From Hesseltinella vesiculosa (taxonomy: Eukaryota; Mucoromycota; Mucoromycetes; Mucorales; Cunninghamellaceae), in contig MCGT01000020.1 of the NCBI GenBank assembly GCA_002104935.1, forward strand, positions 62,001 to 126,000: a DNA stretch of 64,000 nt, written 5' to 3'. The notes under the pieces were generated by a model. The model worked only from the letters and a program-made list of their open reading frames with translations, had not been told where the DNA came from and made no database searches. The translations under genes were made by a program, and so were the position numbers. Position 1 is the stretch's first letter. Every line of letters begins with the position of its first letter. Below are positions 5,815-42,169 of the stretch, piece by piece.

Positions 5815-6741
5815 AGACAAACAGACTATGTTGTGTTTGCCTCTTTGGTGTTGTGGAACGATGCTATGATTTGATTGTGCCAAAAGTGCCTGCCGAGGGC
5901 TGATTAAAGGTAATCTGATGATGTAAACCTTGGAGCGATGGTGATACCTCACCTCTTTTCTTATTTTTTTTTTTTGGTAGGAATGACACATCTGGCTCTA
6001 AATGCATCATTCGCCTCGGCTATGCTTTTGTGCACGTTTTTCAAATCGTTGGTTCCACAGTGGACCCACCAACGTTGGCATCACCTTCTCTGGCCCTCTG
6101 TTGCCTGTCAGGTTCTCTGGGAATCGCAGACTAGTTGCTTTCGCGTGCATTTGGCATTGCTTCCTTCTAACCTGGCCCTATTTTCCCTGTCTCTGGCAGG
6201 TTCTCTGGGACTCGCAGGTTAGTTGCTTTCGCGTGCATTTGGCATTGCTTCCTTCTTCTCTGGCCCTATTTTCCCTGGCAGATTCTTTGGGAACAAACAG
6301 ACTATGTTGTGTTTGCCTCTTTGGTGTTGTGGAACGATGCTATGATTTGATTGTGCCAAAAGTGCCTGCCGAGGGCTGATTTAAAGGTAATCTGATGATG
6401 TAAACCTTGGAGCGATGGTGATGCCTCACCTCTTTTCTTATTTTTTTTTTTGGTAGGAATGACACATCTGGCTCTAAATGCATCATTCGCCTCGGCTATG
6501 CTTTTGTGCACGTTTTTCAAATCGTTGGTTCCACAGTGGACCCACCAACGTTGGCATCACCTTCTCTGGCCCTCTGTTGCCTGTCAGGTTCTCTGGGAAT
6601 CGCAGACTAGTTGCTTCGCGTGCATTTAGCATTACTTCCTTCTTTTTTGACTCTGTTTTCCCTGGCAGATTATTTGGGAACAAGGAAAACTTGCTGTGTT
6701 TACGTATACGACCATGGAACAGTGCTTTGATTTGAATGTGC
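5815..6741 (+). repeat. Tandem repeat, 476-bp period, two copies plus a remnant
   Basis: The sequence starting AACAGACTATGTTGTG near 5820 recurs near 6296, a period of 476 bp, and the two copies are almost identical through their T-run segment and the CATCATTCGCCTCGG segment. A third, diverged start appears near 6668. The first copy also contains an internal duplication of about 90 bp (TCTCTGGGA...TTGCTTTCGCGTGC near 6115 and again near 6205) that the second copy lacks. Hydrophobic open frames run through it on the plus strand, but each is broken and none resembles a known family. Confidence 0.8.
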
Positions 6742-10218: not shown

Positions 10219-10236
10219 TCACGGAATGCGGGCGGC

Positions 10237-10270
10237 ACCTGAAACAAAGGAGGGTTGCATGAAGCCAGGT
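10237..10270 (+). repeat. Palindrome-ended 34-nt motif (copy 1)
   Basis: Bounded by ACCTG and CAGGT with GAAACAAAGGAGGGTTGCAT inside. A near match with CCTGA...TCAGG ends lies at 38786-38817. Each lies just outside the N-terminal region of a Fanzor-family remnant, and each is followed by a run of T. It may be a terminal or subterminal element, or a transcript hairpin. Confidence 0.5.
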
Positions 10271-10309
10271 ACACTTTTCTTTTTTCTTTTTTTTTTTTTT
10301 TTATTTTCA

Positions 10310-11500
10310 AACGTAGTAATCATTCGCATATGATACTGAACAAGACTTATTACATCGCCTGGTTTTGGAGTACACGGGTCAAATGATCCGCAAGACCCAG
10401 CTTTCGACAACTGGCAAGGTATACACAACGAAAGCATTCATTTTTGTTTATTTGCTCGAAAATAGATCTTGTATTTCGTAACAGTGTGGAAGAGAAGGTC
10501 ATGCTATAGCATAGAGTCGTAATTGCGAGCATCATCATAAAGTCAGAGTAAGTTCCTAAAGTCACTTTCCACTTTCCTTCTGCAAGCGACCCACTCATTA
10601 GCTGGGAGATTGGAGGTATCCAAACGAAAATGTTCAAACGTCGGCTGGGTCGATCGACCTGATTTTTTCAGCACCGTCATCATTCATGCATTTGCGCATC
10701 CCTACAAATTTATCATATCGATCCAATTCCTCAAAACTGCTGTGTGGTGTCTGCGTTTTTTTTTTTTTTTTTTTTTTGAAAAAATAGTATCGACATCCAC
10801 CAGTTCGACTGATCATGTTGAGCAAACCAATATCAAAAACGAAAAGCAAGCCGTCGGTCGAAAACCCAAGCTAGTAATTACCAATCCCAACGCCATCATC
10901 AGGTTACACATCAAACCAACAAAAATCAGTAGTACAGCGACGTTAGGTCGAACCATCCTTGCAAAAGTATCTTTTGCCGACACGCCTCTTGTTTTGATGC
11001 CAAATGCTACTATGATCTGATGAAACAGCAATAAACATGGGCCAGCCCACTCTGCCATATCCAGCTTCGAAAACTACAAGCAAGTGCGACCAGACCATAT
11101 GACGGCAGTTCAACGGCATGTGACTGATGCTAGCCAACATTAACGTCAGCTATTCATACACTGTTGGACTGTTTATGAATCACTCATTCTCAGCAGCCTG
11201 AACGCATTCTAATCAATGGAAATGGAATGTTTAAGGTGCTCATTCTCTTACGCGGTGATAGAAATGTGGAAAGGTTTGAAGGAAAGCTTCCGCTCGAACT
11301 TCTTGGCCGTTCTACAAACCTCCAAGCTGCATTGGCTGTTGAGTAGGCTCCAAGGTCACAACGTCTGCAAGCACTGAGGATGATCGTCCAGCGGTCGATT
11401 AATTCCTGAGGAGTAATTGTGTGGTTCATAAACACGTCAAGTAGCACTTTTGTGCGAACAAGGGTTTGAAATTTTCCAATAAAATGCATTTCCTATTTTT
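10310..11500 (+). pseudogene. Degenerate fragment of the Fanzor-family gene (N-terminal half)
   Basis: Plus-strand relic of the gene family seen intact-ish at 36227-38709. Shared protein blocks, in order, are KAFIFVYLLENR (the other copy has EAFIFAVFLENR); CGREGHA, a CxxC/GH zinc knuckle; GRKPKLVITNPNA against SRKRKLEIANTDA; VRPDHMTAVQRHVTDAS against VRPNHILTLQQNVTDAS; and INGNGMFKVLILLRG against INGNGLYKVCMLLRG. Stops (for example after the ENR block) and frame changes are frequent, and the order is split by a foldback repeat at about 10595-10800. Nothing corresponding to the catalytic C-terminal half is present. It is older and more decayed than the 36-38 kb copy. Confidence 0.7.
10595..10800 (+). 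repeat. Foldback repeat fragment inserted in the Fanzor relic
   Basis: Contains the family signatures GGTCGATCGACCTGATTTTT, CATCATTCATGCATTTGCGC and ATCGATCCAATTCCTCAAAA followed by a T run, all shared with the full elements at 19920-20830 and 46660-47600. It splits the coding blocks of the relic, so it inserted after that copy arrived. Confidence 0.75.
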
Positions 11501-34749: not shown

Positions 34750-35643
34750 TTACAAAATAGTACACTTCTTTTTCTTCTTCGCAGGAGAAGTGGGGCATAA
34801 GACAGCACGGATTGCTTCGTCAAAGACATTTTTCAGGCCATTTTGAGTAAGAGCTGAACATTCCAAATACTTGACAGCACTAATATCCTTGCACATTTGC
34901 ATGCTTTGTTGGAAGGTGATAGGAGCCATATGCTTTTGACGGAGCTTGGCAATCGTTTCGGGGTCTTCACGCAAATCCAATTTGGTACCCACGAGGATAA
35001 TAGGCGTGTTGGGTGCATGGTGACTAATTTCCGGATACCACTAAATCGTAAAACAATGAGATAAGCATCCTTCTATCGCACTTACGACCCCCTGTCTCCA
35101 CAGCCTGTTTACCGCCCAAGCACATATTCCCAGCTTTATAAAATCCGAAACTTTACCTTGGTCTTGACATTTTCAAACGAAGGAGGGCTGACCAGTGAAA
35201 AGCAAATCAGGAAAACATCGGTTTGAGGGTAGGATAATGGTCGCAAACGATCATAATCTTCTTGACCCGCTGTATCCCACAAGCCAAGATTGATAGGCTT
35301 GCCGTCGACCATGACATTGGCTGAGTAGTTATCAAACCTAAAATATGAGATGAGCTTTCTCCACAACAACATGAAAAAAAAGGGCACGTGTTTTCGTGGC
35401 CAATTCAAAAAATAAACGCACTGTCTTGACTTACACTGTTGGGATATATTCACCAGGGAATGCATTGGTTGTGTATGAGATTAACAAACAGGTCTTGCCG
35501 ACAGCACTAGGTTATCATCATCATATGAATAAAAAAAAAAAAGAAAATAATAAAAAATTTCAGCTGGACGATTTAAACTTGATAAAAACATTGCATAATC
35601 CATTTTACCCATCACCAACTACAACACATTTGATAGATTGCAT
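34750..35643 (-). CDS. RAC1: Rac1 small GTPase
   Basis: Rho-family switch controlling actin, polarity and NADPH oxidase at the plasma membrane. Four exons (35609-35643, 35435-35506, 35157-35337, 34750-35040) give exactly 192 residues, the standard Rac length. It contains the P-loop GDGAVGKT (residues 10-17), switch [14 protein letters not shown], switch [22 protein letters not shown], the specificity loop GTKLDLRED and SALTQ. A polybasic stretch AKKKKK comes before the CAAX box CTIL, which should be geranylgeranylated. No changed catalytic residue is seen (Gly12 and Gln61 present). The exon phases and all motifs fit. Confidence 0.97.
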
Positions 35644-36226
35644 ATTGTAAAATACCAATGAAAAGAAGTTTGAAATAAAGAAATAAAAAAAGCAGAGGCA
35701 AAAAGGGACAAAGAAAAAGGGGGCAACAAAAAAACAGCAACTTTAAATTCATGATCCGACGCTCTTCACTACACCATTGGGCTCAGGTGCAGAATCTCCC
35801 GTCAGCCCGCCGCAATCAGTCCGAAAGACATTTGTGTACCTGCCACTAAATCCACTAAGTTTTTGACCGATTCACTGGAGACGACACTTCCGCGTCGACT
35901 GGCGGCAACAATTTTCTATACTATGTTGGTTTCATGATACACTTTATCCATTAACTAATGCCGCAGATAAAAAAAAAAAGACAAATGTCACAAGTCAAAA
36001 GCATGAATGTTGCAAGCCTAGGCAAAATGTCAGATGAAAGTAAAAACAAAAAAAAATGAGTAGCTGATAACAAGCAATTTTGTTCCTATGACTAAACTTA
36101 CCGTTTCTGGGAGTTGGAGCAAAAGAAGGAGATGTGATGAGTGCAAGTTGTTATCGAAAAAGCAAACGCTTACAGTTTTGATGAAAAACAAATTCGTGAC
36201 ACTAAAAGCTCTTTTGCAGCACATGG
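35644..36226 (-). other. Region 3' of the Fanzor remnant and upstream of RAC1
   Basis: No protein gene. Several A runs. It should contain the RAC1 promoter. Because Fanzor guide RNAs are normally encoded at or just beyond the 3' end of the nuclease gene, the part from about 36226 downward is where one would look for an omega-RNA and right-end sequence. I see no clear hairpin by eye. Confidence 0.3.
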
Positions 36227-37622
36227 TCAGGTGTCCTCAACGGCATCAATTAGCAGGGGAAGTTTCAGTCTGCCCGAGAGGGTGGGTTCTTGAGGATCGG
36301 TCATAGGCCTGTTGAGGATGGAGGGGCGGTGGCCATATTGGACGTCATGGGTTGCGATGGAGAGGATGTTGCGTGCCGCGTTGCGATCCCTGAGCCACAG
36401 TGTTCTTCAATTTTCGCATTTGAGAACTGAGTACGTCATTAGGTCATCTGCAGTCAAACGAGGTGAGGTGGTGGTGGTGACAGTGTTGGTGGTGACGATT
36501 GCTGACCTGAAGGTGGGTTGGTTCGAAGTTACAGTAGTGGTAAGGACAAGAAGCTGTAATGATCCGTCATCATCGTGCGTGCTGCTGCTGGAAACGGTCG
36601 TTCCAAGCACTCGGCCAGGTTGCTCTTCGTCCAGCTCTCCTCGTGTGGCCATGGTGTGCTTTGACGTGGTGATAATTGTTGTTTCTTCATGGGTGACCAA
36701 AGTATCAGTTGATGTGATTTCGGACAGGGTGGAAGGGTCGGAAGGGCACGGCGGCGAGACAAATGTTGTTGTTGAGGCGTGCGGCATGTGGAGAGCGCGT
36801 GGGTTCACCTGGACATAGGACAACGAGAGACTTGCGCAACGAGAGCACACTTGGAACGTCAGGTACTCGCCCACTTCGACCAGCAGCAAACGTAATCGGG
36901 TGTCTGTCCTTTTGAAGGCAGACTTGACTTTTTTGATAGGCTAGCTTGCGTCTTTTTCTCTTGAATACAGACGCACTGATGTTTGCTGCACCGTAAAAAA
37001 TGACAGGTAGCTTCCTGGCGTCACTGACCACAAATGCAGGTCACCATTTTTTCCCACTGCAGTAAAAAAAGAAAGAAAAAAAAAAGTGAGGCCTCAAACA
37101 ACTTTGTCTCTGAGACTCTGACGCTCTCTGCTTAACCTGTCTTACGCTGCAATTGGCTCAAAGCTTGTGATTCGACCAGGTGGGTCCTGCTGGTATTTAA
37201 GGCCACCATTGATGAGGATGTTCACAACTTCGTCATTTTGGATTTGGTTCTGGCGCCAGATGTTGAATTTGGCTTTGGCTAATCTGATCGAGGTATAAAA
37301 CTGTAACAGCTTCATCCAGTTTTCATTCAGGTATTCATGGTAGACACCCATGGTCGTAGGACACGCCGTTCGATAAGTTAGGGTTGCTGATTCCAATCGA
37401 TCGATCCCTGCCTTTCTTTTCCATCGCTGCATTTGCTTCTGGGCCATCAGGTTATGTCTTCGGTAGGCGGCGATGGTGTATGGCATTCTTCTGGCCATGC
37501 AGAATGGTCGAGCACAGCCTTCCAGTCAATAGTAGGACCATGTCGTTCCGGCTTCAGGGCAAAGAGCACATAGGATTCATCCACAAGCTTGTCACAATCC
37601 ACTTTGGTGGTTGAGTGGGCCA

Positions 37623-37656
<34 letters not shown>

Positions 37657-38709
37657 GGTAGAGTTAGCATTCCCGGATTCGCCATTCATCGCTCTTTTTT
37701 AGATAAGCCTTACATTCCACAAAGCAAAAGCACTAGAAATCGTATGTACGTTTTGAGTTTGGCCTCGAAGTGTTCATTTGTAGAATCGTTGTAGCTGGTT
37801 GCCATATGGTCCAAAGCACATTTGATTGTATTCGCGTCAATAGAACGAGGGGGCGGCGCAAACAGCAGAGACTGGGAACCAGGTTCTGCAGCCAATTCAG
37901 TTTGGAGGGAACCAAAATGGCCAAGAAGTTCGGGTGGGAGCTGCCCTGCAAATTCTTCCACGTTTTGGCCACCACGTAAGAGCATGCATACCTTGTATAG
38001 ACCATTACCATTAATAACAGTTCGCACGAATTGCCGAGGGTAGGTCAGGATAAAGTCGTTGACAAACGACCCAATACGATGAGCTGACGTAACTGTGGGC
38101 TAGCGTCTGTCACATTTTGTTGAAGAGTCAGTATGTGATTAGGTCGCACGGCCTTGTCAAAAGAGAGTTTTCTTGTATATTCCTCGTGATTTGGCAAGAT
38201 ATCGTCGTAGAACTGCTTTCTCCTTGCTGGATGTGTGATCTGGGTGTGGCATCAGTGTTAGCAATTTCTAGCTTGCGTTTTCGGCTGCCTTCTTTTTTTT
38301 TATCTTTTTAAATATTGGCTTGTTCATCACAATCAGCTGACTTAGCGGATGCCGATGCTTAAAAAAAAAACCAGAGTGAGCCACTTTCTAGAAGAGCACT
38401 GAAAGGTGCCTTTGGGAACTTACGTCCAGGTTCAAGATAATGCTCGCAAGCAACACTCTTTTTTGTAGCGTGACCTTCTCTTCCACAGCTATTACAAAAT
38501 ACAAATCTGTTTTCGAGAAAAACAGCAAAAATGAATGCTTCGCTTTTGTTGGAGTAGAACGTCCCTCGTCGGCTGGCTGCCAATTGAGTCATCAGGATAA
38601 TTCGATCTGTGGGATCCAGATCCAGGCGATCCATGTTGTCCAAAAGGCCATTTTTAGTATCGTATGTGAATGACGATACTACGTTTGTAAAAAGGTCTTT
38701 TGAAATCAT
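36227..38709 (-). pseudogene. Fanzor (eukaryotic TnpB-like RNA-guided nuclease), decayed
   Basis: Minus-strand gene in ordered blocks. A zinc knuckle comes first (CNSCGREGHATKKSVACEH, about 38470). Then VRPNHILTLQQNVTDASPQL, FVNDFILTYPRQF and INGNGLYKVCMLLRG (about 38000), a linker, and SYVLFALKPERHG (about 37560), where the family has its DPG-type RuvC-I motif. RRMPYTIAAYRRHNL and a helical block follow (MKLLQFYTSIRLAKAKFNIW), then KLPVIFYGAANISASVFKRK (about 36990). RuvC-II comes as VEVGEYLTFQVCSRC, then a Ser/Thr-rich insert of about 120 residues, and the RuvC-III site LWLRDRNAARNIL (about 36400) and a 35-residue tail. Defects: a frame change near 37500, another at an A run near 36940, Lys for the first Asp, and a TGA at the fourth zinc-ribbon position (36407). 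Identity as TnpB/Fanzor rests on RDxNAAxNI plus the zinc ribbon. Confidence 0.75.
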
Positions 38710-38785
38710 GATGAAAAGTCGAAAATGTAACAGGAAAGAAAAAGGTTCCAAAAGATTAAAGCTCCCTTCCGTTTTTTTTCAGGTT

Positions 38786-40169: not shown

Positions 40170-40715
40170 GCGTAAACAGGTAATGATGGGGGACAGTTTA
40201 TTTTTTTTATTTTTTTTTTTTCAGGAAGGAGGAGAGGGTTGGTTAGTAGCTTCCGCCATAACCGCTGGCTTGTTGAGGTTGTTGGGATGCATACGCAGAC
40301 TGGCCTTGTGCGGCAGAGGGTTGTTGGTATTGTTGAGCAGCGTAGCCATATCCAGAGCCGCCAGCATCGCCACCATAAGCTGAGTATCGTAGCTGCCGCT
40401 ACCACCTCAACCGAAGCCGCCACGATCAAAACTGCCGCGACCACAGAATAAAGCCAAGTCTTCCAACAGGGGGTCAATTGATTGATTAGTTTGACGGAGA
40501 ACATTGTTAAGTTCACAAGCTCGACGAGCATTGTCCATGGTGCGGACGCCACGGCCGGTACGGACCATACGAGAGGATAGTCATCCACGTTGGCAGGGAA
40601 ATCGTCATCCACGTTGGCAGGGAAATCATAACTGATAGACACCGCACGCTTGGTTGATTGGATATATTTTTGCGCGAGGATTGGCCATTTGCTTCCGTCA
40701 AACAAGTCGAGCTAT
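40170..40715 (-). pseudogene. DEAD-box RNA helicase fragment (Dbp2/DDX5-like C terminus)
   Basis: Minus-strand fragment of a DEAD-box helicase. ISYDFPANVDD matches the helicase motif before HRIGRTGR; here the sequence continues into a frame-changed RTGRG segment. After it come ARRACELNNVLRQTNQSIDP and LLEDLAL, the C-terminal extension typical of Dbp2/DDX5, then GRGSFDRGGFG and a Gln/Gly/Ser-rich end (YQQPSAAQGQSAYASQQPQQ then ASGYGGSY). A 24-bp piece encoding DFPANVDD is tandemly duplicated, and there are stops and frame changes. The N-terminal helicase domain is absent. It lies directly beside the inverted cassette, as the PP2C fragment does beside the other copy. Confidence 0.7.
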
Positions 40716-42169
40716 TGACAGTTTACACAGCGGAAGGTCCAGCAAGACCAGCGGGAGGGCTGGAGGCGGTTGGCCAGTGTGGCAGCACCGCAAAATAGCA
40801 GCATAACTGAAAACCACAATATGACAGGTGACTGAAAACGAGCCCCTTCCACTTGCTATCGCGTCATGCGAGGCTTGTAGCAAGGTTTTTCCATGTTCCA
40901 TGGAAGGAGTTGTCAACGTGAACTATTCTTTGATGTCCATAGCATGTAAATAAAAAAAAGGAAAAAAAAAAAAGAAAATAAATAGAAGTTCAGTTTTGTT
41001 TAGCGGGTGGGAAACTGTGCAGCATGTGTGTTGTGTATGGAATCTATCAAGACTGTTTTTTATCACATAACGAAGGGAATGCCACTATCAGGGATTTGTC
41101 AATGAACACCACCATGATAAATGGGATATTGCACTTTTCGTGGCTGTTATGGGCTGATCGCTTTCATGTTTTATCACTGGTATTAGAAGCACATGCGATG
41201 CCAAGATCAATAATCGCAAGAGCATCAGGGGCCAAGGGAGCCACCAGTACAGAAAAAAATACATTCTTCGTCCAGGATGGCAGGTGGCGTATGATAGCAA
41301 CCGCACTCTGTTTTCCTTAAGCGACATGGTCATCCTCACAAAAATTTTTATTGCTTTTTTTTTTTTAGCAAATTAAAACTGGAGTCTTTCCCCTTGCAAT
41401 TTTAGGGGGAGGGCCACCAATGCCAGAGGAAGGGCTAGCAGGGCTAGAGAAAGGGCCACTAATGGCAAGCGGAAGGGTAAGCAGCTGCTGGGGCGCCGCC
41501 AAAGGGTTGAAGCCTTGACGGCGAGGATGGATAGGAATACCAGCAGCACCAGCAGATGGGCCAGCAGCACCAGAAGTAACACCAGTAAAACCACCAACAG
41601 AACAAACGGGAGAAGCGAGGAGCTGATCTTGTTGGGCTTGTCGCTCTTCATGGCGACGATTTGATCTTAATAAACGGACAGCGATCGCCAGTTTTTCATT
41701 TTATTTCTGCTCGTGCTGCGTTTATGACTGCAAAACATAAATTATGACAGCTCTATTCAAGAAAAGGTTATGAGTATTTTTAAACAAGGCAAAGAAATGG
41801 GATACGTCAACCGATTTCGTCCAGTTTAAGTGTCAAGTAAAAAAAAAAAAAAAAAGCAGAAGACGTAAGAAAATTATGAAGGGGTGCGTTTGCATTTTAT
41901 TTTTATTTTTTGGTGCCGTATGAAAAAACACTTGAGGAGGGAAGGGGATATCAAACGCAATAGCCATAGTCGATGTTTGGCCATTTTGAAAAACGCACAG
42001 GCAATGCAGTTTGGTTATCGGCCGACCTTGGTCGTTGAAAATTACATCTTCGTATATTACAGATGGCTACTTTTATTTCGGTTATATTTTTATGAGGGAG
42101 AGAGAGATACTTGTTATTTTTGAAAGGGGGCGAGAGAGGCAGGGCGCTTTTTTTTTTTTTTTTTTTTTG

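Follow-up and report, generated by a model that had tools for sequence, protein, structure and literature searches.

The window, by which we mean the whole stretch of 64,000 nucleotides of Hesseltinella vesiculosa DNA analysed here (C13:62001-126000), contains on its minus strand a decayed, insert-carrying copy of a Fanzor gene that spans from 37465 to about 36249 and is followed by a 3' flank resembling that of its paralog on contig C12 down to 35939. In the direction of the gene, the copy begins with the remnant of exon 4 (37148-37465), which runs from the RuvC helices to the GGxKY motif and was delimited by a tblastn match of C12 exon 4 (37489-37148, 73% identity, E=2.5e-54) and by the blastn boundary at 37465. 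The start of exon 5 (KLPVIFYGAANISASVF, 36930-37040, minus strand; tblastn match 37109-36930, 65% identity) is immediately preceded by an in-frame stop (37043-37041), and six-frame reading places its strand KLPVIFYGAA out of frame with the downstream part of the exon. The initial annotation had picked out a block at 36960-37030; it belongs to the same exon as RuvC-II and is read in a different frame. The next piece of exon 5 (36836-36934, minus strand; ORF reading and C12 alignment) carries the RuvC-II motif VEVGEY (36880-36863, with the Glu codon at 36868-36866) and the first zinc pair CSRC (36847-36836). It is followed by 139 open codons (36419-36835), including a Thr/Ser-rich insert of about 120 codons, that separate the zinc pairs according to six-frame reading and codon comparison with C12. 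At the second zinc pair (36407-36418) the window reads CEN (36418-36410) and then TGA (36409-36407), which replaces the fourth zinc Cys of the paralogs (C12 has CENC). From 36406 the sequence continues with RTLWLRDRNAARNIL, and the RuvC-III segment (LWLRDRNAARNIL) with the C-terminal tail occupies 36249-36406 (minus strand, tblastn to C12). The C12-like 3' flank (35939-36248, minus strand) perhaps reaches the right end of the element, the blastn match amounting to 84% over 35939-37465. The succession of VEVGEY, CSRC, Thr/Ser-rich stretch, CEN, stop and RTLWLRDRNAARNIL on the minus strand at 36880-36406 is thus as initially annotated. Exons read from ORFs at 34750-35465 (minus strand), which we take to encode a Rho/Rac-type GTPase, adjoin the dead copy downstream. 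A Pfam search with the window pieces alone gave no family above cut-off; the window locus was absent among 46 PF07282 matches, and the window exon had no PF07282 match.

Translated searches of the whole genome (27 Mb, 85 contigs) recovered paralogs on contigs C12, C85, C45 and C16, the last with two copies (C16a and C16b), and these ruled out a chance open reading frame as the origin of the match in the window. The closest paralog is C12 (77-79% identical): the insert exon of the window matched G000:C12:395014-395538 with 79% identity (E=8.2e-81) and the two C16 paralogs with 36% (E about 1e-15), and the upstream exon was 77% identical to C12, 70% to C85 and 44-45% to C45 and the two C16 copies. 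Counting only matches over at least 30 insert residues, and ignoring the copies in the inverted ends of the C16 and C45 elements, we found the insert sequence at 14 places in the genome, the window counted (102 matches; 140 of 148 candidates scored); a weak further match at C1:864445-864717 was left out of this number. The initial annotation had pointed to living copies elsewhere in the genome as a possibility, and the paralogs share the insert. In C12 the gene consists of five exons separated by four GT-AG introns (52-83 nt), and its deposited product is the hypothetical protein DM01DRAFT_1369914 of 1077 amino acids (called P0001 here). Read plainly, C12 has 1098 residues with one in-frame TAA in the N-terminal half; the deposited model is 21 codons shorter and therefore avoids this TAA through one further predicted intron, so that C12 would be unbroken only if the intron predicted in this model is real. 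C16a is frameshifted relative to C16b. The latter, starting at an ATG in its second block, remains open over 1086 codons (introns of 89, 89 and 61 nt; first exon uncertain), so that in one copy or more of this genome the main reading frame is unbroken. The product of the decayed C85 copy (P0002) scored 15.7 bits against PF07282, below the cut-off of 26.3.

Upstream of exon 4, tblastn and blastn comparison with the paralogs showed that RuvC-I with its DPG motif and the rest of the gene are absent from the window copy. In their place lies, at 37463-38724 on the minus strand, the N-terminal part of a second Fanzor family (family B, as opposed to family A, which carries the insert) with 86% DNA identity to C38 and a CNSCGREGHATKKSVAC knuckle at 38496-38446; a weaker match to family B (72.5%) extends to 38853. 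The best protein matches of the window ORFs above 37463 were 77-79% and 83-84% identical, at 86% on the DNA level. The blastn matches to the two families, B from 37463 upward and A up to 37465, overlap by 3 bp where the elements meet (37463-37465). Of the single unit initially annotated at 36227-38709, the insert copy from 37465 to about 36249 stands, and the part from 37463 to 38724 belongs to the other element. The extra N-terminal zinc knuckle had been assigned to the same lineage, so that knuckle, insert and RuvC blocks would form one unusual Fanzor protein. All three parts are indeed ordered on one strand and the junction lies between two Fanzor coding pieces; we nevertheless regard this reading as scarcely credible. 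The knuckle ORF matches the second Fanzor family at C38, C45:923k, C78:43k and C56:39k, and at C38 it continues into another Fanzor body, which shows STIDPG and CSTCRTVFERDRLA (CSTC...ERDRLA); at C45:923k it extends at least to the STNG block. P0001 and C16b have, by reading, another N-terminus without a knuckle, and a short remnant of exon 3 of family A (LFDGSKWPILAQKYIQSTKRAVS, 40636-40728, minus strand; tblastn 40705-40637, E=1e-4; blastn 79%, E=4e-15) is found beyond the family B piece. Among the three knuckle loci read (L080, L081 and L082) there was no second one with the same A-B join and an open frame. The knuckle as a part of the insert-bearing gene was therefore rejected on account of the junction at 37463-37465. 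In the simplest history, a B element would have inserted into an A element, and the DNA flanking the present join would then have been deleted on either side, which would leave the window copy without RuvC-I. The window copy cannot act as a nuclease: it has lost RuvC-I and an intact frame, has a stop in place of the fourth zinc Cys and takes its 5' part from another Fanzor family. A further, more decayed fragment of the knuckle-bearing family B, with pieces 66-81% alike, was seen at 10229-11338 of the window, mostly on the plus strand.

The description of the locus as a decayed TnpB/Fanzor-type nuclease was borne out by the paralogs, by the fingerprint residues and by a profile match. A general Fanzor motif is given in the consulted part of PMC3627910; the portion of PMC10711439 available to us names as Fanzor fingerprints a DPG motif and a Glu that precedes the ribbon by six residues, and as a feature of Fanzor1 a TDG motif in the WED domain. 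The fingerprint residues of P0001 are D654, E871 and D1031. DPG is found at RuvC-I (AVDPGDRD with D654 in P0001, GLDPGDRD in C16b; the window copy begins downstream of it), the RuvC-II Glu stands six residues ahead of the ribbon (E871 and C878 in P0001, EYLTFQVC in the window), and the RD of RuvC-III is part of RDRNAARNI in both the window and P0001. A C4 ribbon of the PF07282 type lies between RuvC-II and RuvC-III in P0001 and the C16 exon. RDxNAA does not stand by itself in this family, as RuvC-I, RuvC-II and RuvC-III are all alignable in the family A paralogs. The WED motif reads ITTDG in C16b, TDG at residue 565 of a relative from Gongronella butleri (P0008) and, one residue off, ITTNG in P0001. 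When a profile of seven paralog cores was compared with 25 PDB sequences, the Spizellomyces Fanzor1 SpuFz1 (8gkh) was the best match (E=5.7e-14); the Guillardia Fanzor1 GtFz1 ranked 8th (1.9e-4) and the Parasitella Fanzor1 PpFz1 19th (1.5e-3), with TnpB- and Cas12-type entries between. The profile alone matched, since single-sequence searches against solved structures, including one with the C16 exon as query, returned no Fanzor. The NCBIfam TnpB models gave 18 bits with P0001, far under their cut-off of 100. On these sequence features the family of the window locus is Fanzor1-type.

The insert sits inside the zinc ribbon, as initially proposed, and makes it far longer than in compact relatives. 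The zinc pairs are separated by 139 residues in P0001 and in the window and by 136 in C16, versus 19-22 in five compact genes of the same genome (L040, L019, L023, L017 and L037) and 18 in a Mucor lusitanicus protein, i.e. 136-139 versus 18-22 in six compact proteins; in P0004 the gap is 40. Compact and expanded ribbons thus coexist in one genome. Alignment with the five compact paralogs places the insert between CSxC plus about 10 residues and KLYSVxxCxxC. The TNB zinc ribbon profile of Pfam (PF07282, 60 positions, cut-off 26.3 bits) was passed by P0001 (36.3 bits) and by the C16 exon (38.8 bits), each in two stretches, the best one covering profile positions 39-60 in P0001 and 10-37 in C16; the insert would accordingly split the profile at about position 38 of 60. 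The spacing of 136-139 lies outside the published pattern CxxC-x(12,18)-CxxC, which is the search pattern of one study (PMC10711439, as far as the consulted part goes) and no definition, SpuFz1 itself having 34. The insert proper of P0001 comprises 123 residues (28% Thr, 41% Ser+Thr), overlaps the 120-residue segment in which the protein is richest in Ser/Thr and falls barely on the disordered side of a simple charge-hydropathy rule (0.429 versus a boundary of 0.440).

Because compact relatives do without it, the Thr-rich stretch might be an intron or non-coding DNA that is open by chance, the mature ribbon being compact. In the comparison of C12 with the window, changes in the insert were distributed 12/14/35 over the three codon positions (binomial p=1e-4) with a dN/dS of 0.26. 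C12 and C16 could be aligned in one frame over 119 codons with 37% amino-acid identity in the insert (63% and 52% in the flanks) and changes of 52/61/92 (p=4e-4), and the first C85 piece compared with C12 gave 22/19/37 (p=0.007). Between C16 and C51 the counts were 8/11/18 (p=0.04 in the binomial and 0.12 in the chi-square test), between C16 and C7 10/10/17 (binomial p=0.075), and between C16 and C45 1/3/6, which are too few changes. One of the seven comparisons, that of C12 with the second C85 piece (43 codons of a decayed copy), lacked a third-position excess (19/8/15, dN/dS 0.54) and would fit the intron reading. The dN/dS of the insert was below 1 in all of the seven comparisons where it was computable, a value that in decayed copies blends selected and neutral time. 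Furthermore, 417 nt separate the zinc pairs versus introns of 52-89 nt in C12 and C16b, and the deposited P0001 model keeps the insert as coding. The codon pattern and the deposited gene model led us to reject the intron reading, which we hold to be very improbable; judged by its codon pattern, the insert is coding sequence.

In a tree built from 18 cores with the insert removed, hand-chosen from the 38 loci searched (the L045 core being left out as a query), all five insert carriers lay on the same side of a branch supported at 85/94. Since this support is below the star level of the tool and came with a long-branch warning, the evidence that the insert arose once is moderate. As far as the sequences go, the ribbon insertion marks one Fanzor lineage, family A. 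It is likely that in this family the zinc loop lengthened from roughly 20 to roughly 137 residues by acquiring the Thr/Ser-rich segment.

Close to either end, the C16a, C16b and C45 copies have inverted repeats about 490 bp long; none were seen in the C12 stretch (L078). The repeats contain about the last 107 Fanzor codons, including part of the insert, and are 97% alike (1217-1698 and 5925-6410 in stretch L077; likewise in C16b and C45); the 3' part of the gene is thus present twice per element. No clear target-site duplication was found for the C16 and C45 elements, as the three gene-side ends share CACATTTATTTC and the other ends differ. A hairpin directly after the stop codon (L077 6247-6335) is conserved in eight copies, with z=-2.42 and an equally good fold in 3 of 200 shuffles. 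Compensatory changes were found in 0 of 30 pairs, which leaves the hairpin as a candidate guide-RNA (omega) scaffold only.

Taken as a whole, the locus is likely a dead Fanzor1-type fragment from a family in which a Thr/Ser-rich insert splits the TNB ribbon and whose live members would be RNA-guided nucleases. The fragment would derive from a transposon-like element of Hesseltinella vesiculosa carrying a Fanzor1-type gene of family A. In live members the two distant zinc pairs, with four Cys, would still close into one ribbon, and the insert would leave it as a flexible surface loop. The protein would act as an RNA-guided RuvC nuclease that cuts sites without its own element, as proposed for TnpB. 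The consulted part of PMC10432273 gives, for TnpB, a model in which cleavage of the element-free site leads to copying of the element back into it, and suggests the same for Fanzor.

SpuFz1 of Spizellomyces punctatus (8gkh) shares with family A the RuvC core, the Glu just before the ribbon, the Cys pairs and the RD after the ribbon. In the profile alignment it differs by having 34 rather than 136-139 residues between the zinc pairs and by the lack of a Thr-rich segment in this stretch. According to the consulted part of PMC10711439, some Fanzor1s reach about 800 residues largely via insertions in the REC1/2, RuvC and ZF domains; a ribbon insertion as such is therefore not new. For those with an enlarged ZF domain that part describes no Thr-rich segment, and their size of about 800 residues compares with 1077 for P0001. 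In the parts of main texts consulted on Fanzors, no description of a Thr-rich ribbon insert was found. Like family A, PpFz1 of Parasitella parasitica is a Fanzor1 from the Mucorales whose nuclease half contains about 100 additional residues; this FRI domain is, in the portion of PMC11423790 consulted, folded, located in RuvC, bound to cyclophilin via P614/P616 and detected by the authors only in Parasitella and Rhizopus. The family A insert, unlike FRI, sits between the zinc pairs (alignment and PF07282 split). From profile-match coordinates and a 394-residue fusion offset fitting SpuFz1, P614 of PpFz1 would lie some 200 residues before RuvC-III, which would place FRI outside the zinc ribbon.

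By analogy, the insert might serve a host protein as a docking or regulatory segment, with a role comparable to that of FRI, and might have been kept for that purpose. It was kept over deep divergence with shared positions, its dN/dS is below 1 wherever computable, and a lineage-specific insertion binding cyclophilin offers a known precedent (PMC11423790, consulted in part). Against this stand its low complexity, its lower conservation (37% versus 63% and 52% in the flanks between C12 and C16) and the lack of a known binding partner; a merely tolerated loop would look alike. We therefore consider such a role unlikely. The related picture of the family A ribbon as a split domain showing a selected Thr/Ser-rich arm, for example host-modified or host-bound, that would control nuclease loading or nuclear behaviour, appears doubtful as well. 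If it were true, it would mean, taken together with FRI and the low-complexity segments found after GGxKY in compact genes, that Mucorales Fanzors have repeatedly gained insertions facing the host, at various positions in their nuclease half. To return to the Thr/Ser-rich gain in a Fanzor1-type ribbon, the data suggest that the zinc ribbon near the Fanzor active site can take an insert about six times the usual loop length with coding constraint retained. For an enzyme class that serves in genome editing, the insert would point to a site where insertions are naturally accommodated, and its effect could be tested directly in this fungal genome, which has ribbons of both the compact and the expanded kind. 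Fanzors of this type would escape regular-expression searches that allow only a short spacing in the ribbon.

Outside Hesseltinella, P0008 (Gongronella butleri BC940DRAFT_30379) was, among the matches listed in the protein searches, the only long-collinear relative of family A from another genus. It is collinear with P0001 over residues 78-806, a stretch that includes RuvC-I and reaches the end of exon 4 (30% identity over 795 columns), and its gene model ends ahead of the zinc ribbon. In these searches the C12 query matched 1 of 7731 candidates, namely P0001, and the further searches gave at least 6 of 7996 and at least 2 of 7995 (the latter with E up to 0.01). None of 48 pattern matches in viral contigs was confirmed.

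Two other types of Fanzor were observed along the way. The compact-ribbon Fanzors L019 (2-1330), L023 (203-1327) and L017 (80-907) contain segments rich in Ala, Ser, Thr and Pro that lie between GGxKY and KWR, perhaps close to where FRI is found in PpFz1; with the ribbon insert, low-complexity insertions thus occur at two places in the gene family. Another Fanzor-like family, represented by L045 (1414-1944, minus strand) and L046, has a Lys-rich stretch, perhaps an intron, before the first zinc pair and reads RDVMAACN where others have RDxNAARN.
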